A DNA stretch of 64,000 nt from Thermoproteota archaeon (GTDB lineage Archaea; Korarchaeota; Korarchaeia; Korarchaeales; Korarchaeaceae), in contig JAOZGC010000002.1 in NCBI GenBank assembly GCA_027491915.1, positions 567,344-631,343 of the forward strand. Reading direction: 5' to 3'. The translations under genes and the position numbers were made by a program. A model generated the notes under the pieces. The model saw only the letters and a list, made by a program, of their open reading frames with translations. It had not been told where the DNA came from and made no database searches. Positions 2,130-13,144 of this stretch are shown piece after piece (the first letter of the stretch is position 1; the number at the start of each line of letters is the position of its first letter).

Positions 2130-2145
2130 ACCAACTCGAGATGGG

Positions 2146-2394
2146 ATGATGAGTTTCGCGGTCGAGGTGGATGGGAGGGGGAGGGTCACGATCCCCAAGA
2201 GGTTGAGGGACTCCCTCAGGATCGGTCGGAAGGTCAGGATGAAGGTTGAGGGTCGCAGAATAATAATAGAGCCGATTGAGGATCCGCTGGACGAGCTGAC
2301 CGACCTCGTGAGGGGGTCCAAGCTCAGCTCCGACAGGGCGGGGGAGATAGGGCGCGCGGCCTCGGAGCAGCTCCTCAGGGAGGCTCGGCGATGA
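2146..2394 (+). CDS. vapB: VapB-type antitoxin, AbrB/SpoVT swapped-hairpin family
   Basis: Antitoxin of about 82 residues. The N-terminal 45 residues have the AbrB swapped-hairpin pattern (VEVDGRGRVTIPKRLRDSL), which binds DNA as a dimer. The charged C-terminal part would wrap the toxin. Two consecutive ATGs (2146, 2149) are possible; both are within leaderless range of the TATA element at 2118-2124. The stop overlaps the toxin start (ATGA at 2391-2394), so the two are translationally coupled. The same frame is open for 120 codons upstream, but that extension is Pro/Gly/Arg-rich and unlike a real protein. Confidence 0.88.
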   Translation: MMSFAVEVDGRGRVTIPKRLRDSLRIGRKVRMKVEGRRIIIEPIEDPLDELTDLVRGSKLSSDRAGEIGRAASEQLLREARR

Positions 2395-2798
2395 GGTGGA
2401 TGGTGGAAACCGATATAATCTTGTCCGCGATATGCAGGGGGGATCCAAACCACGATCTCTCCAGAGAGGTCCTCAGGGGACTCAGGAGGGCCTTCCTATC
2501 TCCGTACTCCCTGATGGAACTGGATCTCCTCATGAGATCGGGTAATCTGGAGGTGGAGAGTTACGAAGAGTTCTGGAGTTCCTTCGATGAGTTCATGAGG
2601 CAGTACGGCATTAAGCTGACACCCTCCAAGCCATTGCACTTCTCTGAGGCTGAGAGGGTGAGGAATACCCATGGCCTGTCCTACTTCGACAGCCTCCACG
2701 CCGCCGCGGCGATCCACGAGGGCGTGACGCTGATCAGCTACGATGGGTCCTACTCCAGAGTCGACGGGCTCAGGCACGTCCACCCCAAGGAACTTTAG
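2391..2798 (+). CDS. vapC: VapC-type PIN-domain ribonuclease toxin
   Basis: A 135-residue single PIN domain that would cleave RNA with Mg2+/Mn2+. Acidic active-site candidates are Asp in METDIIL near the N-terminus, Glu in SLMELD (about residue 43), Asp in SYFDSLHAA (about residue 100) and Asp in LISYD (about residue 117), the usual quartet. The ATG overlaps the antitoxin stop by one base. The toxin-antitoxin assignment rests on this order and overlap plus both domains. Confidence 0.88.
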   Translation: MRWMVETDIILSAICRGDPNHDLSREVLRGLRRAFLSPYSLMELDLLMRSGNLEVESYEEFWSSFDEFMRQYGIKLTPSKPLHFSEAERVRNTHGLSYFDSLHAAAAIHEGVTLISYDGSYSRVDGLRHVHPKEL

Positions 2799-4287: not shown

Positions 4288-6483
4288 TCACCTGCCCCTG
4301 CGCCAGATCGCGGCCGCGAGGGCGGCGAGGGCCGCGGCGACCGCCAGCAGGAGCAGGAGGAACGTCCTGTCCTCCCACCAGGCCCCGCCGGGAGGCGGCC
4401 CCTCCTCGACTCCCCCGGATGGGGCGGCCCCGCCGCCTCCCGCCCCCGCCCCGGTCACGTGCAGGTTGATGGTCTCGGCGTCCTCCGCCCCGTCGGCCGA
4501 GGCCCTGACCACGACTAGGTAGTCCCCCGGGGAGCCGGCCGCGAGGTAGACGACGGCCCTCTGCCCGGGCCTGACCTGGGCGGGGGTGACGTTCCACTCG
4601 ACCCCGGGCGGCGCCTCCACGGTCAGGGACACGGAGGGCGCCTCCCCCCGGACGACCTCGGCGGCGGCCCAGGTCCTCACGGGCCTCCCGACTTCGGAGG
4701 AGAGGTTACCCTCCCCCAGCCTCAGGTCTATCCGGACCTCGCCCCCGTGGGGCTGCTGGCCCCCGCCGCCCCCTCCCGCCGCGGCCGACACGTGGAGGGT
4801 GACCGCGGCCTGCCTGACCAGGGAGCCGCTGGTCCCGACCACCTGCACCTCGTAGTCGCCTGGCGGGGTGTCCCCTGTCGGCATGACCCTGAGGTACGCC
4901 GTCCCCCCGGGGGACAGCGGGCTCCCGTGCACCAGGTGGAGGGATCCCGGCGGGGCGCCCGCCACCGACAGCTCGACCTCCCCGGAGAAGTCTCCCACCG
5001 CCTCCAGGTGGACCTCGAACGTGGCGGCCCTCCCCTGGACGGTCGTCGCCTCCGTCGGGTCGGGGATCAGGGCGAAGTCGCCCTGTCCCGCGGGGGGCTG
5101 CCCTCCTCCTGGAGGCTGCTGCCCTCCCCCTCCCCCTCCCCCGCCTCCGCCCCCGCCGCCGGCCTGCTGCTGGGGCGGCTGCAGGACCATGATCCAGGCC
5201 GACGCCGAGTCCTCCAGCCCGCCCCCCTGGCCGATCACCGTGACCAGGTAGTTCCCCGGCTCAGCCCAGTCTGGGACCCCCACCGTCAGCTGGGCCTCGG
5301 CCCCCTCCCCCGGGACGGCGGCCTCGGGGCTCACTGAGATGGACGCCCCGACGGGACCGCCGGACGCCGAGAAGTGGACCTCCTCGGAGAATCCGAAGTG
5401 CGGGACGGCGTCAACCGAGAGGGAGGCCTCCTCCCCCGGGTGGACCGACACCAGGGGCGGACTGAGGAAGACGGAGAACGTCGGAGGGTACTCGGGCTGG
5501 GCGCCTGGGGGAGGCTGGAACCCCCCGGGTCCTGGGATCGGCACCTCCTCGGGCGGGGGGCCGGCCGGCGGCCCGGGATCCGCCGGCAGAAGGTCGCTCA
5601 CGTCGGGCACCTGGCCGGGGGGTATGTTGGGCAGGGGGAAGACGTTCTCGCCCTCCCCCTGGTCCTCCGGCGGTATTCCCGGGATCTGACCCATCCAGGA
5701 CGGTATGGAGGGGATCCCCGGGATCAATGGGATGGGAGGAGGCTGCTCGCCCCCTCCTCCGCCCGCCCCGCCCCCGTACTCCACGTACAGGGTCGGCGAC
5801 TGCCCCATCTCCTTCGAGCGGAGTATGACCTCGCACCCCATCTCCGGCTCCCAGTCGTACCCCCACCAGTCCGAGTCCGGCGCCAGGGCCAGCCTCACCT
5901 CACCCCCGGCCGACACCTCCCCCTTCAGCTCGTCCGTCAGGTCCAGGACCAGGGGGCTCTTTCCCTCCGGGGTGACGTAGAAGGATCCCAGGTCGTGGAG
6001 GTGATCCCAGGGATCCCAGGCCTCGCCGGGGGACAGCTCCTCCCAGGTCACCCCGTGCTCCGAGAATTCTACGTCGACCCTGGACACGGCGAACCTGCAC
6101 AGCTCCGAGGGCGGCCCGGGCACCGCGTCGTATATGCCCTGGAGGGGGAGGATCAGCAGGACCTTGGAGACCACGCCCTGGGACTCGATCCCGGTCAGGT
6201 CGAACTTCAGGAGGGTTATCGAGTCCCACCTCTCCAGGTAGACCATGCACGGCCCGCCGTCCTGACAGGCCGGCTCGCCGTAGTCGAAGAAGTAGCCCGC
6301 GGTCAGGAGCTCGTCGTCCCCCCAGTTCTGGGACGAGTAGGCCGGGTGCTCGTAGATCGACACGTCGGCGGCGGCGTAGGAGTACACCTTGACCACGTCG
6401 CCGGGAGAGGCGGCCGCCGGGGCGGCCGCCAGGATCAGGACCAGGATCGGGATGGCCGCCGGGAGGAGGACCTTCCTCTTCAT
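4288..6483 (-). CDS. Secreted, membrane-anchored protein with DNRLRE-like and beta-sandwich domains
   Basis: About 731 residues. Residues 1-26 form a signal peptide. A DNRLRE-type carbohydrate-binding-like domain follows (about 30-235; SITLLKFDLTGI and TLYVEYGG are typical strands). Then come Gly/Pro-rich linkers including runs of glycine, three Ig-like modules with FSEEVHFSASG, FSGEVELSVAG and VSLTVEAPPGV strands, and a C-terminal transmembrane helix followed by WRRGR. It is thus an outward-facing cell-surface protein. ATG 6483 is favoured over TTG 6486 because TTATAAG on the minus strand (6504-6511) lies 26 nt upstream. It is divergent from the sensor-like gene at 6595, only 111 nt apart, so joint control is plausible. 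Confidence 0.8.
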   Translation of the reverse strand: MKRKVLLPAAIPILVLILAAAPAAASPGDVVKVYSYAAADVSIYEHPAYSSQNWGDDELLTAGYFFDYGEPACQDGGPCMVYLERWDSITLLKFDLTGIESQGVVSKVLLILPLQGIYDAVPGPPSELCRFAVSRVDVEFSEHGVTWEELSPGEAWDPWDHLHDLGSFYVTPEGKSPLVLDLTDELKGEVSAGGEVRLALAPDSDWWGYDWEPEMGCEVILRSKEMGQSPTLYVEYGGGAGGGGGEQPPPIPLIPGIPSIPSWMGQIPGIPPEDQGEGENVFPLPNIPPGQVPDVSDLLPADPGPPAGPPPEEVPIPGPGGFQPPPGAQPEYPPTFSVFLSPPLVSVHPGEEASLSVDAVPHFGFSEEVHFSASGGPVGASISVSPEAAVPGEGAEAQLTVGVPDWAEPGNYLVTVIGQGGGLEDSASAWIMVLQPPQQQAGGGGGGGGGGGGGQQPPGGGQPPAGQGDFALIPDPTEATTVQGRAATFEVHLEAVGDFSGEVELSVAGAPPGSLHLVHGSPLSPGGTAYLRVMPTGDTPPGDYEVQVVGTSGSLVRQAAVTLHVSAAAGGGGGGQQPHGGEVRIDLRLGEGNLSSEVGRPVRTWAAAEVVRGEAPSVSLTVEAPPGVEWNVTPAQVRPGQRAVVYLAAGSPGDYLVVVRASADGAEDAETINLHVTGAGAGGGGAAPSGGVEEGPPPGGAWWEDRTFLLLLLAVAAALAALAAAIWRRGR

Positions 6484-6499
6484 CAACTCGAGCGACTCC

Positions 6500-6575
6500 C
6501 CTTGCTTATAACCTCCGGCGGCTCATCCCCCCGTCCCACCCCCCGCCCCCCTCCGACCCGAAAAGGATTAACCCC
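6500..6575. promoter_or_regulatory. Divergent promoter region
   Basis: Minus-strand TATA (TTATAAG, 6504-6511) for the secreted protein and plus-strand AAAAGGATTAA (6561-6571) about 28 nt before GTG 6595. The two core promoters are about 55 nt apart. Confidence 0.6.
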
Positions 6576-6594
6576 CGGGCGGCCGCCCGCCCCG

Positions 6595-8658
6595 GTGGGG
6601 AAGGTGAGGCTCGCCCCCCTGGTGGTCCCCCTGCTGATCCCCCTCATCGCGGCGGCCCGACCCGCGGCCCCGTCGGCCCAGGGCCTGACGGTGGTGGAGA
6701 GGCTCTGGGTCAAGCCCCTGTGGGGTTCCGTCGGGGGGCTGGGGTGGACGCCCGACGGATCGGCCCTGGTAGCTGGCACGGGCACGGGATCCGTCTTCTC
6801 GATCTCCCCCGAGGGGGTCGGCCTGTGGACCAGGGGGGTCGGATCCACCGTCACCGCCCTCTCCCTTTCCGGCGGGACAATCCTGGTCGGCACCGATTCG
6901 GGGATCCTGGCGGCCTACGACGAGTCCGGCGGGATATCCTGGTCCGCGGACCTGGGGATCCCCGTCTACTCCCTCGTCCCCGTCCCCGGGGGCTGGATCG
7001 CCGCCGCAGGCGGGGACCTCCTGTACGCGCGGAACGGCTCGGTCGCCCCGGTCGGCGTCAACCTCAGCTTCCCCCCCAGGATCGTCTCCGGGTGCGGCGG
7101 GAGGCTCGTCGCCGCGGGCCCGGGGGCGGCGGCGATCATCGACCTCCCCAACATGACCGTCTCCCTCACCGTGGACCTGCCCGGGGCGGCCTCCTCCCTG
7201 GCCTGCGGCCCCTCTGGGGTGGCCCTCGGGGACGATGAGGGGATGCTGACGGTGGTGGAGGGCAACTCAACCCTGTCCTTCGACCTGGGAGTCGGGATCG
7301 AGGCGCTCTCCTGGTCGCCGGGGGACCTCCTGGCCGCCGGCCTGGCGGACGGGAGGGTGGTGGTCCTGACCCCGACCGGGGAGGTCGTCTGGAACTCCAC
7401 GTCGCCGTCCCCGGTGACTACCCTGGCTTGGGACCCGTCAGGATCCCTCCTGGCCGTCGGGACCTCCTCGGGGTGGTTCTACGTGTACACCGGCGCCGGG
7501 ACCGAGTCCCACCGGGTCGACCTCGGGGACCGGGTGTGCTCCCTCTCCTGGTCGCCGGACGGATCCCTCCTGGCCGTCGGGACCTGGGACGTTCACCTCT
7601 TCGCCGTCTCCAGGCCGGGGTTCAGGCTGGAGGTCTCTCCCTCCCCAGACGGCTCCGCCCTGGAGGTGTTGGTGTCCGTCTCCCCTCCCCTGCCCTCGCC
7701 GCTGGAGGCGGTCGTCTCTGCCGTCGAGGGGGGTGTGGAGGTGGCCCGGGGACCCGTCCTGATATCGGGGGGCGGCGGGACCGCCGGGCTGAACCTGACC
7801 CTCCCGCCCGGGGATCACGCGCTGGCGGTCAGGCTCCTGGTGTCGGGGAAGGAGGCTGCCTCCCGGGTCGTGGAGGTCTCCGTCCCACCCTCCGTCTCCG
7901 GGGCCGCCTCCTGGTCTCGGGGGCGGCTCCGCGTTAACCTGACGGTGGTCGGCGGCCCCCTATCCGGGAGGCTCGAGGTCTCCGAGTCCGGCCGGACCCT
8001 GGCGAGGGTGGACCTCAACCTGCCCGAGGGAAACTCCCCTCTGGAGGTCCCCCTGGAACTACCCCCGGGGGATCACCGGCTCTCGGTGGCGGTCACCGGC
8101 AGGTGGGGCGGGCTGTGGGAGGGGGAGGTGTCGGCCGCCGTCAGGGGTTTCTCGGTTCTGGCCTCCCCCTCCGGGGAGGGGGGCGCGCTGTCCGTCACGG
8201 TGTCGGCGGACCCTCCCCCGTCCCCCGGCGAGACCCTGAACCTGACCCTGAGGCTCTCCGAGGGTGGGGTGGAGGTGTGGGTCGGTCGGGTCTCCCTCTC
8301 CGGTCCTTCCTCCCACCTGGAGGTCCCCCTGGAACTACCCCCCGGGGATCACTCGATCCTGGTCGAGGCGGTCTCCGGCGGGGAGGTGGTCGCCTCTACC
8401 AGGGTCGAGATCCGCGCGCCCGGCGGCCCCCAGATCCTCCCCTACGCGGGCCTGGTCGCGGCGGCCGCGGTCGGGGCGGCCGCCTTCAGACTCAGGAGGA
8501 GATCGACCGACGCCGAACTCAAGTTAAGGATCCTGGAGGAGGCCCTCTCCGGGCGGGACCTCACCCCGGAGCTGGTCGCCTCGAGGCTCGGGATCTCCAG
8601 ATCCAGGGCCGCGAGGCTCCTGGAGGAGCTCAGGGAGGAGGGATCCCTGGAGGGGTGA
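6595..8658 (+). CDS. Membrane-spanning regulator: extracellular beta-propeller, one TM helix, cytoplasmic winged helix
   Basis: About 687 residues. Residues 4-28 form a signal peptide or anchor. Residues 35-340 are a WD40/PQQ-like propeller (repeats such as LSWSPDGSLLAVGTW and LAWDPSGSLLAVGTS). Residues 340-600 hold three similar beta-sandwich modules, each with a strand like LELPPGDH. A transmembrane helix (ILPYAGLVAAAAVGAAAF) precedes a 60-residue winged helix at the C-terminus (LTPELVASRLGISRSRAARL). The domain order implies an outside sensor joined directly to a DNA-binding domain. GTG 6595 is chosen from TATA spacing; GTG 6604 is possible. Nucleotides 8041-8076 and 8317-8352 are near-identical, showing recent duplication of the third module. 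Ligand unknown. Confidence 0.82.
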   Translation: MGKVRLAPLVVPLLIPLIAAARPAAPSAQGLTVVERLWVKPLWGSVGGLGWTPDGSALVAGTGTGSVFSISPEGVGLWTRGVGSTVTALSLSGGTILVGTDSGILAAYDESGGISWSADLGIPVYSLVPVPGGWIAAAGGDLLYARNGSVAPVGVNLSFPPRIVSGCGGRLVAAGPGAAAIIDLPNMTVSLTVDLPGAASSLACGPSGVALGDDEGMLTVVEGNSTLSFDLGVGIEALSWSPGDLLAAGLADGRVVVLTPTGEVVWNSTSPSPVTTLAWDPSGSLLAVGTSSGWFYVYTGAGTESHRVDLGDRVCSLSWSPDGSLLAVGTWDVHLFAVSRPGFRLEVSPSPDGSALEVLVSVSPPLPSPLEAVVSAVEGGVEVARGPVLISGGGGTAGLNLTLPPGDHALAVRLLVSGKEAASRVVEVSVPPSVSGAASWSRGRLRVNLTVVGGPLSGRLEVSESGRTLARVDLNLPEGNSPLEVPLELPPGDHRLSVAVTGRWGGLWEGEVSAAVRGFSVLASPSGEGGALSVTVSADPPPSPGETLNLTLRLSEGGVEVWVGRVSLSGPSSHLEVPLELPPGDHSILVEAVSGGEVVASTRVEIRAPGGPQILPYAGLVAAAAVGAAAFRLRRRSTDAELKLRILEEALSGRDLTPELVASRLGISRSRAARLLEELREEGSLEG
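8041..8352 (+). repeat. Near-identical 36-bp repeats marking a module duplication
   Basis: The copies at 8041-8076 and 8317-8352 differ at one base. They encode LEVPLELPPGDH in successive beta-sandwich modules of the same protein. Confidence 0.85.
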
Positions 8659-8695: not shown

Positions 8696-9151
8696 ATGAC
8701 CTACAGGCTACCCAGGACCGTCAGGATCCTGCTCGAGGATTACAGGGCCAGGCTCAGCGAGTGCGAGTCCCGGGCCTCCGAGCTCGCGGAGAGGGTCGCC
8801 GAGCTGGAGGCCAGGCTGAGGGACCTGGAGGCGGCGGCCTCCCCGGGGGGCGAGCCCGGCCCGGCGGACCGGGGGGCGGACCTGGTCCGGGACCGAGACC
8901 AGGACCGGGACCTGGAGGTGGAGAGGCTCAGGGCCAGGGTCGAGGAGCTGACCAGGAGGCTGGAGGAGCTGGAGTCCCTGGACATGGGCAAGTTGGAGGA
9001 GGATCTGCTGAGGCACCTGGCCGCCTCTGGGGGATGGTTCGACCTGCAGAAGGCCAGCGAGGAGCTTGGAGTCTCGCCCAGGGCCGTCATGGCCGCCGCC
9101 AGGTCCCTGGCCTCCAAGGGGGCCCTGATCCTGGTGGAGAGGGAGGGCTGA
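8696..9151 (+). CDS. Coiled-coil protein with C-terminal winged helix
   Basis: A 151-residue soluble protein. Residues 15-55 and 75-100 have heptad-rich, strongly charged helices (coiled coil). Residues 105-150 form a small winged-helix-like domain (FDLQKASEELGVSPRAVMAA). It has a good Shine-Dalgarno and its TGA overlaps the ATG of the next gene, so the pair is translationally coupled. Likely a DNA-binding or scaffold partner of the metalloprotease-like protein. Exact function unknown. Confidence 0.75.
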   Translation: MTYRLPRTVRILLEDYRARLSECESRASELAERVAELEARLRDLEAAASPGGEPGPADRGADLVRDRDQDRDLEVERLRARVEELTRRLEELESLDMGKLEEDLLRHLAASGGWFDLQKASEELGVSPRAVMAAARSLASKGALILVEREG

Positions 9152-10467
9152 TGGACCCGCCGGGGGACCCGCGCGAGTTCGTGAGGAGGCTGCCCCTGAT
9201 GGCCGGCTGCCCCCCCAGGGTGAGGGCCGGGCTGCTGGCGGAGATGGGGGAAGAGAGGGCCGCCCCCTCCTCGGGCCACGCCCTGCCCCCGGAGGTCGTG
9301 CTGACCCCCATGGCCTACTTCCTCTACGAGTTCCTGAAGGAGGCCGCCAGGGTGATCCAGGAGGAGGCCGGGGAGAGCCTGGGCGGCGCCCTGGGGAGGA
9401 GGGCCTTCGAGAGGGTGCGCAGGAGGCTGGCGGGCAGGGTGCCCCGGGGGGCGATGCCCACCCAGGAGGAGGCGGTCCAGATAGCCGCCCTCTACCTGAG
9501 GCCCGCCTCCGTACCTCCCCCTCCCTCCCCCTCGGCCAGGAGGGTCAGGACCTCGGACGACCTGGCATCCGGCAGGTGGGCCGTCAGGGTTTTCCGGCCG
9601 GGCACCGTCGAGGCGGCCGCGGCCAGGCTCCTGCTGCTGTCCAGGGTGTCCGGCCTCTCCCGCCGGGAGCTGGGGGAGCTCTCCTCCCTGATCCTGGGGC
9701 TGGCCCGGGAGAGGCTGGGCGTGGACCCCGGGGACTACCCGGTCTCCTTCGACCGCCTCGCCCCCGCGGCCTCCGCCCACCCGTCCGGCGGGGCGGTGAT
9801 CCCCTACGACCCGGATTCGGCCATCCCGGACGCCGGGAGGCTCGCGGCCCACCTGGCGCACGAGGCGGCGGGCCACGGCTTCTTCTACAGGAAGACCGCG
9901 GCCGGCCGGATCCTGTCCAGGCTCGCCGCGGCCGAGGCCTCCGCCTCCGGGGTGGAGGCCGCCGAGGCCTCCGACAGGCTCAGGATCTTCGGGTGGACCA
10001 CCGTGGTGGTGGACGAGGGGTTCGCCCTCTGGGTCGAGCTGGCCGTCCTCAGGGAGCTGAGGCCGGTGCTGGGGGAGGCCATCCTCGAGGAGGAGATGAT
10101 GAGGTACCTCCTGCCCGACTCCGATCCCTACGGTCGGACCGACTCGGAGTACTTCGAGCGGGTCTACGGGAGGGCCGTCAACCCCTACAAGGAGGGGTAC
10201 TCGGCCCTCTTCGACCTGGAGAGGATCTGGGGGAGGAGGTGCGCCGTGGAGGCCGTCAGGGTGGCGGCCGGGATCGCGGACTACGGGCCCGAGGGCAGGG
10301 GGGTGGCCGATCTGAGGGAGCTGGTGTCTTCCCACCCGGAGTTCTGCCCGGATCAGAGGCTGATGGCCGTCAGGGCCGCGGCCCTGGACGACCCCGGGGC
10401 CGCCAGGCCCAACGGCCCGGGCGCCTTCAGGGAATTCGCCCGGCGGGCCCTGTCCCGCCTGGGGTAG
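9151..10467 (+). CDS. Putative zinc metalloprotease with HEXXGH motif
   Basis: 438 residues, no signal peptide and no transmembrane helix, so cytoplasmic. The central motif LAHEAAGHGFFY (about residue 240) has the HEXXGH spacing known from the dipeptidyl peptidase III family (M49) rather than HEXXH. About 45 residues on, VVVDEGFALWVE supplies a Glu that could be the third zinc ligand. These are what I see; the overall sequence is not recognisably M49, so substrate and family are open. ATG 9151 overlaps the upstream stop. The context (sensor with inner winged helix, coiled-coil/winged-helix partner) suggests a regulatory protease, but that is inference. Confidence 0.6.
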   Translation: MDPPGDPREFVRRLPLMAGCPPRVRAGLLAEMGEERAAPSSGHALPPEVVLTPMAYFLYEFLKEAARVIQEEAGESLGGALGRRAFERVRRRLAGRVPRGAMPTQEEAVQIAALYLRPASVPPPPSPSARRVRTSDDLASGRWAVRVFRPGTVEAAAARLLLLSRVSGLSRRELGELSSLILGLARERLGVDPGDYPVSFDRLAPAASAHPSGGAVIPYDPDSAIPDAGRLAAHLAHEAAGHGFFYRKTAAGRILSRLAAAEASASGVEAAEASDRLRIFGWTTVVVDEGFALWVELAVLRELRPVLGEAILEEEMMRYLLPDSDPYGRTDSEYFERVYGRAVNPYKEGYSALFDLERIWGRRCAVEAVRVAAGIADYGPEGRGVADLRELVSSHPEFCPDQRLMAVRAAALDDPGAARPNGPGAFREFARRALSRLG

Positions 10468-10490
10468 GTCCTCCGGCCCCAGGGCGGCAA

Positions 10491-10499
10491 CTATATTTA
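10491..10499 (+). promoter_or_regulatory. TATA box for the KaiC/GvpD-like gene
   Basis: CTATATTTA centred about 26 nt before GTG 10521, giving a leaderless start. Confidence 0.7.
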
Positions 10500-10520
10500 C
10501 CGGGGACGCGGGAGATCTGT

Positions 10521-11909
10521 GTGGCGGGTTCCGGCTCTATAGGAGAGGATGATAGACTGCCCGATTTCCTGAGGGAATTCTTCGGCCTCCCCTGGACCAA
10601 GGTGGCCGTGATAAGGGGGGGACCCGGAACCGGGAAGACCGCCCTGGCCCTGACCATCTCGGAGTGGCTGGTCGAGACCGGCCGTGAGGTGATATACTCC
10701 AGCTCCGACGTGTCGGAGGAGAGGCTGGCGGGCCAGTTCCCATGGATACGGGACCTCCTCGGATCCGGCCTCTCGGTGAGGGCGGGGCCGGTCCGGGCCA
10801 GGGAGCCGCGCCACCTTCCACTGATATTCTACGAACACGTCGAGGAGGCCCCGGACGCCATAGTCATAGACTCCTGGAACTCCTTCACCTACGAGCTGGA
10901 CGAGAGGGACGCCCTCAGGGCCGCCAGGTCGGTCAGCGAGATGACCAGGAAGTACGGCGGGAAGGTCGTGCTCATAGAGGAGGGGGACGGCTGGTCCCCC
11001 CTGGACTACGTGGCGGACGTCCTGATCGGGCTGGACAGGACCCTCCTGGGCGGGAGGGTGATGCGGAAGGTGACCCTGGAGAAGGTCAGGGGGCTCGGGG
11101 TCTCCTGGGCCAGATCCCCCTTCACCCTGGCCGGGGGGAGGTTCAGGATCCTGAGGCCCCGGAGCTTCTCCCCGCCCCCCAGGGGGGAGAGGGAGCCCTT
11201 CCCCCCGGCCGACCTATCCCGGGATCGCCTGCCGCCCGGGGTCGCCGGGATGGACGAGATCCTGGGGGGAGGGTGGAGGAGGGGGACGGTCAACCTGATC
11301 AAGCTCGGGCCCGGGGCCGGGGTGGCCTACATGCCCCTGCTGGCCAACCCCATAATGGCCTTCCTCAACGGGGGAGGGGCGTACGTGAGCATCCTCTCTG
11401 GCAGGTTCAGCCCAGAGTCGGTGGTGGACGTCCTCCTGGGCGGGTACGTGCCCGACGTGGAGGACAGGGTGGCCTTCGCCTTCCCGGGGAGGTACCGCTA
11501 CTCCGGCCGCCTGAGGGTGCTCTCCCCCGAGGGCGAGAGCGCCGAGGAGTTCCTCATAGTCCTGGACGAGGCCGAGGAGGCGATGAGGGCCAGGTCCGGC
11601 GACGGGAGCATAATCTGGTTCGTGGGGCTGGACAGCCTCGAGTGGTCCCTGGGCATGGAGGGGGCCCTGAGGGCCTTCCGCGCGATATCCATCAAGACCA
11701 GGACCAGGGGGGACCTGTGCTTCGCGGTCTCCAGGGAGGACCAGCTCCTGCCCGGGTACGTGGCCGACTCGGCCGACACCCTCTGGGAGATCTCGTCGGA
11801 GGAGGGGGTCCCCATACTCTACGGCCTCAACCCCCACACCGGGGCCTTCGGCGTGGAGGCGGACTACTCCGGCCCGCTGCCCAGGGCCGAGGTGATCCCC
11901 ATACTCTGA
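10521..11909 (+). CDS. KaiC/GvpD-like RecA-fold ATPase with degenerate second P-loop
   Basis: About 462 residues with two RecA-type halves. The N-terminal half has a clean Walker A (RGGPGTGKTALAL, about residues 33-45) and a Walker B-like AIVIDSWNSF. The second half opens like KaiC domains (GVAGMDEILGGGWRRGTVN), but the P-loop reads KLGPGAGVAYMPL and lacks the Lys-Thr pair, so it probably does not hydrolyse ATP. The layout recalls GvpD and archaeal KaiC-like regulators. No gas-vesicle genes are nearby, so a general regulatory or signalling ATPase is more likely. GTG 10521 is chosen from the TATA box at 10491-10499. It converges with the flavodiiron gene, stop to stop. Confidence 0.75.
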   Translation: MAGSGSIGEDDRLPDFLREFFGLPWTKVAVIRGGPGTGKTALALTISEWLVETGREVIYSSSDVSEERLAGQFPWIRDLLGSGLSVRAGPVRAREPRHLPLIFYEHVEEAPDAIVIDSWNSFTYELDERDALRAARSVSEMTRKYGGKVVLIEEGDGWSPLDYVADVLIGLDRTLLGGRVMRKVTLEKVRGLGVSWARSPFTLAGGRFRILRPRSFSPPPRGEREPFPPADLSRDRLPPGVAGMDEILGGGWRRGTVNLIKLGPGAGVAYMPLLANPIMAFLNGGGAYVSILSGRFSPESVVDVLLGGYVPDVEDRVAFAFPGRYRYSGRLRVLSPEGESAEEFLIVLDEAEEAMRARSGDGSIIWFVGLDSLEWSLGMEGALRAFRAISIKTRTRGDLCFAVSREDQLLPGYVADSADTLWEISSEEGVPILYGLNPHTGAFGVEADYSGPLPRAEVIPIL

Positions 11910-13100
11910 TCACCGGAGGAACCTCTCCCGGGCCTCCGCCGCCAGCCTCCTGCCCAACTCCCCGGCCTCCGCCAGCTCCCCCTCCGAGGGGGATCCCCTC
12001 ACCTCCAGGGAGGCCACCACCGGCAGGCCCGCCGACTCCAGCCTCTCCCTGGCCACCCTGACCCCGCCGCCGGCCCAGCCGTGGACCCCGACCACGGCGG
12101 CCACCTTGTTCTTGGGCCTGTACTCCTCCAGCAGGTCCAGGTAGAAGGTTATCCCCAGGAAGGGGCGCCCGTTGTGGGTGCTGGTGGCGATCAGCAGGGC
12201 CGCGGCGTCCAGGGTCTCGGCCAGGAGGTCGTCCGGATCCCAGGAGGCCGAGTCCGCGACCGTGACCTCCAGCCCTCCCTCGGCCAGGCCCCCCGCGGCC
12301 GCCCGGGCCAGGGCCTCGGTCCTCCCGTACTGGCTGCCAACCACCACCAGGGCCCGGGCCAGGGGCCTCCAGGAGGCCCACCTCTCGTAGAGGTCCAGGA
12401 TCTCCCCCACCTCCCTGTGGAGGGCCCCGTGGGACGGGGCCAGGATCCGGGGCCCCAGCTCCCTGACCCTGGAGACAGCCCGGCCCACCATAGCCGGGTA
12501 TATGCCGAGTATCGACGCGTAGTAGTCCCTAAGCTCGAAGGACTCGGGATCCTCGTCGTAGAACTCCGCCTCGGACGCCCCGTGGGACCCGAAGAGGTCG
12601 CACGTGAACAGGACTCCCTCCTCCGGCAGGTGGGTCATCATGGTCTCCGGCCAGTGGACGAAGGGGGCCGCGACGAACCTGAGGGTCCTCCCGCCCAGGT
12701 CCACCGAGTCCCCGTCCCCCACCTCCCTGAACCTGCCGGAGGGGAGACCCGCCAGCTTCTCCCCTATCTCCAGCGCCCTCTTGGTCCCCAGCAGGGCGGC
12801 CCCGGGGGCCCTCTCCAGGACCCTGGCCAGGGTCCCCGAGTGGTCCGGCTCCACGTGCTGCGCGACCACGTGGGTTATCTCCGCCGGGTCGACCTCGGAC
12901 TCCAGAGCATCCCAGAACGGGTCCGAGACCCTCTCGTCGGCTCCGTCTATCAGGGCCGTTCCCTCGGATCCCCTCACCAGGTAGAAGTTGTAGGAGGTCC
13001 CCCTGGGGATCGGCCAGAAGTTCTCAAACCTCTCGAAGGCGTCGTTCAGTATCCTGAACGCGGTGATCCCCGGGGCCAGCTCGAACTTGACGTACCTCAA
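11910..13100 (-). CDS. Flavodiiron protein (A-type; oxygen or NO reductase)
   Basis: About 396 residues. The N-terminal MBL-fold diiron domain has the ligand set HVEPDH, the later His in FVHWPETMMTH, Asp in CDLFGSHG and His in APSHGALH. The C-terminal flavodoxin domain begins with ALVVVGSQYGRTEALARA, and STHNGRPFLG binds FMN. It reduces O2 to water (or NO to N2O) using rubredoxin or F420H2. A rubredoxin is encoded at 53975. TTG 13100 is preferred over an in-frame TTG at 13136 because GGTTTTCC (minus, 13125-13132) is spaced for a leaderless start there. Divergent from sfsA. Confidence 0.92.
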   Translation of the reverse strand: MRYVKFELAPGITAFRILNDAFERFENFWPIPRGTSYNFYLVRGSEGTALIDGADERVSDPFWDALESEVDPAEITHVVAQHVEPDHSGTLARVLERAPGAALLGTKRALEIGEKLAGLPSGRFREVGDGDSVDLGGRTLRFVAAPFVHWPETMMTHLPEEGVLFTCDLFGSHGASEAEFYDEDPESFELRDYYASILGIYPAMVGRAVSRVRELGPRILAPSHGALHREVGEILDLYERWASWRPLARALVVVGSQYGRTEALARAAAGGLAEGGLEVTVADSASWDPDDLLAETLDAAALLIATSTHNGRPFLGITFYLDLLEEYRPKNKVAAVVGVHGWAGGGVRVARERLESAGLPVVASLEVRGSPSEGELAEAGELGRRLAAEARERFLR

Positions 13101-13124
13101 CCCGCCGCACCCCGGCCCGCCTCC

Positions 13125-13144
13125 GGAAAACCTCAAAAAGTTCT
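13125..13144. promoter_or_regulatory. Compact bidirectional promoter between flavodiiron gene and sfsA
   Basis: A 20-bp AT-rich patch holds both TATA elements: GGTTTTCC on the minus strand (27 nt before TTG 13100) and CTCAAAAAG on the plus strand (about 27 nt before TTG 13163). The two start codons are only 62 nt apart. Confidence 0.6.

Follow-up and report, generated by a model that had tools for sequence, protein, structure and literature searches.

The stretch of DNA analysed here (the window, 64,000 nucleotides of a korarchaeal contig) holds a gene for a membrane protein of unusual composition, whose chain runs from a signal peptide through a beta-propeller and beta-sandwiches to a transmembrane (TM) segment and a short helix-turn-helix (HTH) domain. 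We refer to its product as the sensor, to the product of the next gene downstream as the partner, and to that of the third gene by its HExxxH motif. A further gene diverges from the sensor gene on the opposite strand. The features are the following, in window coordinates:

4288 to 6483, minus strand: divergent gene, encoding a signal peptide, Ig/NEW3-like modules and a C-terminal TM anchor; its place next to the sensor gene is not conserved
6484 to 6594, no strand assigned: divergent intergenic region of 111 nt, containing the palindrome CGGGCGGCCGCCCG at 6576 to 6589
6595 to 8658, plus strand: sensor or receptor gene (signal peptide, eight-bladed propeller, beta-sandwiches, TM segment, wingless HTH), 687 aa
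6595 to 6684, plus strand: predicted N-terminal signal peptide, aa 1 to 30 (hydropathy; helix 7 to 21 in the AF2 model, pLDDT below 50)
6685 to 7617, plus strand: WD40-type beta-propeller, modelled as eight-bladed, aa 31 to 341 (Pfam, PDB profile search, AF2, Foldseek, VIA-align)
7618 to 8421, plus strand: membrane-proximal beta-sandwiches, aa 342 to 609 (AF2 secondary structure, pLDDT about 72 to 89)
8431 to 8487, plus strand: single TM segment, aa 613 to 631, followed by RLRRR (hydropathy; absent from the AF2 model)
8503 to 8655, plus strand: cytoplasmic HTH of three helices, wingless, aa 637 to 687 (AF2, family profiles, C-termini of the relatives)
8696 to 9151, plus strand: partner gene, encoding a coiled coil and a C-terminal domain like a broken winged helix, 151 aa
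8978 to 9148, plus strand: the broken-winged-helix-like domain, ending at the first wing strand ALILVE (best PDB match 2XVC)
9151 to 10467, plus strand: third operon gene, whose orphan product carries an HExxxH motif
9859 to 9876, plus strand: the motif itself, HEAAGH (HEYLGH in both relatives)

The sensor reading frame opens with a GTG codon at 6595 and closes with the stop at 8656 to 8658. Its N-terminal hydrophobic segment has a mean hydropathy of 1.83 (19-residue Kyte-Doolittle), and the propeller behind it matches the Pfam family ANAPC4_WD40 with 52.1 bits (cut-off 22.9; 8e-14). In an AF2 model built from a two-sequence alignment (mean pLDDT 80), residues 33 to 340 resemble solved propellers at Z 31 to 39 over about 300 residues (50 matches listed), and since the designed eight-bladed proteins Tako8 and Cake8 are found among these at Z 35 to 36, we read the propeller as having eight blades; both the repeat profile and the closed fold of a WD40-type propeller are present. 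VIA-align with the same model gave propellers throughout, sandwich or HTH structures being absent among the matches listed. Residues 342 to 608 are all-beta and form sandwiches in the model, and the Pfam scan gave no confident family for this region; on our reading they comprise three Ig-like modules, with number and borders taken from the order of the strands. The TM segment that follows is borderline in the window protein (mean hydropathy 1.61) and clear in the relatives (1.97 and 2.23), with a segment at the equivalent place in three paralogues (1.81 to 2.58). At least one TM segment, as is required of a transmembrane transcription regulator (TTR), is thus present, if borderline here. A first-pass annotation of the window had proposed an extracellular propeller with beta-sandwich modules, one TM helix and a cytoplasmic winged helix, and had named structure prediction as a check; the model agrees with it in the propeller, the sandwiches and the HTH, but leaves residues 610 to 637 around the membrane unbuilt (pLDDT below 50), so that the single TM helix is upheld by hydropathy, here and in the relatives and paralogues.

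As an independent test of the predicted topology we computed the enrichment of N-x-S/T sequons. Eight of the ten Asn residues of the sensor lie in such sequons, all of them in the ectodomain, a number reached by 0 of 2000 shuffled sequences (shuffled mean 1.5). The sensor of one relative, G005, has six of ten Asn in sequons (5/2000 shuffles), the signal is weaker in the sensor fragment of the other relative, G001 (3/7; 91/2000), and two paralogues hold 7/13 and 8/17. The soluble neighbours that contain any Asn (n=3) have no sequons, and the divergent surface protein shows no enrichment (2/7; 240/2000). These counts support an extracellular position of the propeller and the sandwiches, as the first-pass annotation had it, and the ectodomain is probably N-glycosylated.

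The cytoplasmic tail departs from that annotation in one respect. Three helices are modelled (639 to 650, 658 to 665 and 669 to 682), and the isolated tail lies above the Pfam cut-offs of HTH_24 (23.6 against 21.9) and HTH_IclR (23.4 against 22), placing it in DNA-binding families, as the definition of a TTR also demands; in the full-length scan HTH_24 falls under its cut-off (18.9 against 21.9), and the tails of all three known sensor sequences match this family. The profile of the domain resembles DNA- or RNA-binding HTHs (HTH_24, IclR, MarR, eS25), and 2XVC, the broken winged helix of CdvB, is not listed by it. The chain stops within five residues of helix 3 (C-terminus GSLEG), with no strand modelled after residues 669 to 682, and those of the relatives also end directly after this helix (GALRRCEI and GALEEV), so the beta-hairpin wing is absent from 3/3 sensor sequences. 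A one-base difference just before the stop gives the sensors of G001 and G005 different last residues and reading frames; either frame leaves no room for a wing, and hence the tri-helical HTH stands while the term winged helix does not apply. A frameshift that conceals a wing was considered for the window sequence, where another frame continues past the stop to VRYRQPKSGRR, a stretch that might be taken for a wing, and was rejected: since helix 3 is directly followed by the C-terminus in the two relatives as well, a lost base need not be invoked. The domain is not basic (net charge -3, +2 and -4 in the three genomes), and basic residues are retained in character at the start of helix 3.

Among the 26 genomes of its class, the sensor is full-length or nearly so in three, namely that of the window (G000), G005 (40% identity) and G001, where the copy is interrupted by a contig end; as G001 and G005 belong to one genus, the evidence covers two lineages only. 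Other matches in the class are partial (propeller-only, sandwich-only or HTH-only, the last in short ORFs of G025, G010, G008 and G004) or are paralogues. A query with the TM segment and HTH found six of 61 genomes at E <= 0.01, comprising the three operon genomes, G030, G041 and G033, the match in G033 being an ATPase-like protein of 464 aa. In a wider contig scan, one of 16 loci (L032, which is G005) holds the ortholog, and the 15 others, one of them (L043) a soluble WD40 protein, were judged from their match ranges to be propeller matches. The best conserved parts of the sensor include the HTH (25/51 identical), the propeller (133/305), the first sandwich and the TM segment, with 23/92 in the last sandwich. 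Paralogues with propeller, sandwiches and TM segment and without an HTH exist in G000 (L002) and G005 (L030), where the tails measure 8 to 28 residues; because they share the ectodomain and lack the HTH, the ectodomain has uses that do not involve this domain. These paralogues lie at G000:C4:453648-455675 (L002, L031) and on G005:C4 (L030:6292-8532 and 11309-12667), and in one of them the chain closes with a short tail that is helix-like and similar to HTH helix 1.

The conserved part of the neighbourhood is found downstream. In 3/3 sensor-holding genomes the sensor gene is directly followed by the partner gene and then by the HExxxH gene. In the window the first two are separated by 37 nt and the partner stop overlaps the ATG of the third gene (TGATG), and the junctions in the relatives are likewise overlapping or abutting. 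The partner proteins (150 to 151 aa, about 50% identical) have full-length matches confined to these three of the 26 genomes. Homology of the relatives' partners begins at a CTG codon, with no ATG, GTG or TTG at the conserved start. In G001, sensor and partner share a frame with one TGA between them (L006/L029 near 7407; the equivalent in G005 is L032:10015-10050).

The C-terminal domain of the partner points to a known structure. When its profile was compared with the PDB (177,635 sequences), the best match was 2XVC (E 1.5e-4), followed by PheRS alpha (0.014), and the NCBIfam CdvB model matches the partner in 3/3 members (best E 7.2e-7); when the whole genomes G000, G001 and G005 were scanned with this model, the partner gene alone was matched. 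It shares with the CdvB domain the truncation of the wing, which gives it the form of a CdvB-type broken winged helix, and PheRS_DBD1 is a comparable description, matching about equally well (Pfam, best E 8.5e-6). Likeness to CdvB is confined to this domain: the model aligns with the window partner over its C-terminal positions 213 to 258 of 260 alone, scoring 23.3 bits (at most 25.7 in the genome searches) against a whole-model cut-off of 370, a match to the ESCRT-III core is absent, and no adjoining CdvA was seen by eye. A run of 18 consecutive residues from helix 3 and the strand behind it is the same in 3/3 partners, the coiled coil is identical to that of G005 at 42 of 99 positions, and the domain is again not basic (-2, -2 and -3). 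In each of the three genomes, both HTHs of the operon break off at the wing. An alignment of the sensor HTH with that of the partner covers 48 columns (hhalign probability 85), which may reflect just the common HTH fold. In CdvB itself, the broken winged helix is described as binding the E3B peptide of CdvA, which provides the missing strand (PMC5840170, PMC12909875).

The third protein (439 to 459 aa, 48% identical) keeps its HExxxH motif in 3/3 genomes. At strong E-values the gene occurs in 3/29 genomes of the phylum and in the same 3/394 archaeal genomes, and a short-stretch match (E 0.0024) was found in G286 among the latter. A PDB profile search was empty up to E 5, Pfam gave no match, tblastn against plasmids gave none either, and the AF2 model is poor (pLDDT 41). 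The motif presumably resembles that of HExxxH metallopeptidases of the DPP III or DUF1704/MATCAP type. Similarity to SpoVR (PF04293) is weak (E 0.075, 12.2 of 27 bits, 1/3 members), and a SpoVR search of the class genomes returned none at E <= 1. A match of the N-terminus to encapsulin family 4C (E 0.021, 1/2 members scanned) was dropped; the encapsulin A-domain, as described, has a four-stranded sheet, and the match covers a helix-only stretch of a poor model.

We suggest, with a probability of about 0.45 and thus tentatively, that the sensor is a single-pass archaeal receptor whose wingless HTH works together with the co-translated partner, the HExxxH protein serving as effector. The propeller and sandwiches would face the outside and sense or bind something at the cell surface, and the signal would cross one TM helix to reach the short tri-helical HTH. 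This domain would most likely act with, and probably dock, the coiled-coil partner with its CdvB-like broken winged helix, and the HExxxH protein would then be the effector of the complex; the final output could be transcriptional or of another kind. We favour joint action of HTH and partner because of the synteny, the two truncated wings in adjacent genes, the CdvB precedent and the lack of basic charge. Computation shows the order of the domains, the enrichment in sequons, the missing wing and the three-gene synteny; topology, docking, the direction of the signal and the part played by the third protein are inferred from these.

The closest competitor is a classical transmembrane transcription regulator, in which a tail HTH dimerised by the receptor would bind DNA directly from the membrane, in the manner of ToxR/CadC and archaeal ArnR, at its own promoter, that of the divergent gene or a distant one. 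Such proteins are common, with 1,384 counted in archaea by one census (PMC10269533), and the scores of the isolated tail, together with HTH_24 in all three members, speak for one. The intergenic region, whose length of 111 nt had been given correctly by the first-pass annotation, offers a possible operator: the 14-nt palindrome lies 5 to 18 nt upstream of the sensor GTG, and in 28 of 2000 cases a shuffled version of the region reached the observed count. In 90 nt of sequence upstream of the G005 sensor, however, the palindrome does not appear, the HTH is wingless, the tail is not basic, and what is conserved is the association with another wingless HTH protein. Nor does the divergent gene accompany the sensor. 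In G005, the gene upstream is a same-strand ORF, GNAT-like by eye; in G001, the divergent gene has its full-length homologue on contig C28, the sensor being on C5, where the contig end that cuts the gene hides its upstream side; and homologues without a sensor occur in G021 and G013. Since neither relative shows this gene next to the sensor, we reject its regulation by the sensor as unsupported, the conserved neighbours being the downstream pair. Its product had been called secreted, which was not confirmed, as a predicted C-terminal TM anchor (residues 708 to 726, mean 2.86, followed by WRRGR) makes a membrane-anchored surface protein more likely. Direct DNA binding at some promoter nevertheless keeps about a third of our confidence, because the sensor HTH resembles nucleic-acid-binding HTHs.

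The sensor might instead be a surface structural or adhesion protein of a larger propeller-Ig-TM family, its HTH just a small anchor or oligomerisation bundle that carries no signal. The HTH-less paralogues of G000 and G005 give this idea its plausibility, as they have propeller, sandwiches and TM segment. We consider it unlikely, as the HTH is conserved as well as the propeller and has been kept with the operon in 3/3 genomes.

The receptor-partner reading that we prefer also permits a more specific form, by analogy with CdvA and CdvB: a split-wing switch in which sensor and partner each have a winged helix without its wing and the signal is passed when one completes the fold of the other at the membrane, with the HExxxH protein as effector. 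Taken as a whole this chain of events is improbable, about on a par with a purely structural role; if true, it would give archaea a third route for signals from the cell surface, next to two-component systems and membrane regulators that bind DNA.

Several known systems invite comparison. Bacteria possess regulators of the order Reg_prop, Y_Y_Y, TM and HTH, with an extracellular propeller, a beta-sandwich, one TM segment and a cytoplasmic HTH. The sensor differs from these in its WD40-type propeller, the class of its HTH and its archaeal operon partners, and Reg_prop is absent from it among the matches listed (25 of 32 Pfam families). ToxR/CadC and, in Sulfolobus, ArnR/ArnR1 likewise combine a predicted sensing part and a cytoplasmic-side HTH in one chain of a membrane protein. 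ArnR is described as carrying its HTH at the N-terminus and two TM segments at the C-terminus, along with a HAMP-like and a sensing domain (PMC6396743); in the sensor the order is reversed, the propeller and sandwiches are extracellular, and the HTH is wingless. The haloarchaeal Halo_adaptin ESCRT loci resemble the present one in having a propeller with several Ig-like domains and a protein with coiled coil and winged helix (wH), and differ in that no Vps4 or ESCRT-III was seen beside the genes studied here, where the protein with the propeller also carries a signal peptide and a single TM segment. In the published Halo_adaptin systems, MIT is reported absent and ESCRT-III derived (PMC11188069). 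A module of this kind for membrane sorting, ESCRT- or adaptin-like, as suggested by the pairing in archaeal ESCRT loci of a WD40/PQQ propeller-Ig protein with a coiled-coil-wH protein (Makarova et al. 2024, PMC11188069) and by the CdvB-like partner domain, is very improbable here, given that no Snf7/ESCRT-III match was found in the 26 class genomes (a search of limited sensitivity, the Sulfolobus control also falling below the cut-off of the model) and no MIT in G000, G001 and G005, and that signal peptide and sequons place the propeller outside, a location in which a coat adaptor would not function.

Membrane-bound HTH regulators are already known as a kind, and it is the architecture and the operon that appear new. 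In the open-licence literature, we found no description of an archaeal regulator that joins propeller, TM segment and HTH, and the TTR census (PMC10269533) contains neither "propeller" nor "WD40" in its main text. Studies of archaeal HTH regulators bound to the membrane are still few, and the ArnR paper of 2019 describes its own as the first on the biochemistry of these factors (PMC6396743). A receptor with propeller, TM segment and HTH in a single chain and a fixed pair of partner genes would provide a testable case of how a surface signal can reach the inside of archaea through a chain that includes no histidine kinase, and raises the question whether archaeal membrane HTH domains are more often protein docking modules than DNA binders.

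A further membrane HTH beside a membrane-remodelling protein was noticed in G017 (C2; L088:1432-2566, minus strand), where a PspA-like gene (ESCRT-III superfamily, by eye) lies directly upstream of one for a small two-TM protein whose HTH matches the CdvB wH model. Elsewhere in the window, positions 2143 to 2798 (plus strand) hold an ordinary toxin-antitoxin pair of VapBC-like type, in which the gene of a MazE-type antitoxin precedes that of a PIN-domain protein. A KaiC-like ATPase gene adjoins the operon at 10464 to 11909 (plus strand) and was not found in the surrounding stretches of G005 and G001, and next to it, at 11910 to 13136 on the minus strand, lies a gene for a protein with ODP beta-lactamase and flavodoxin domains, of the flavodiiron type.
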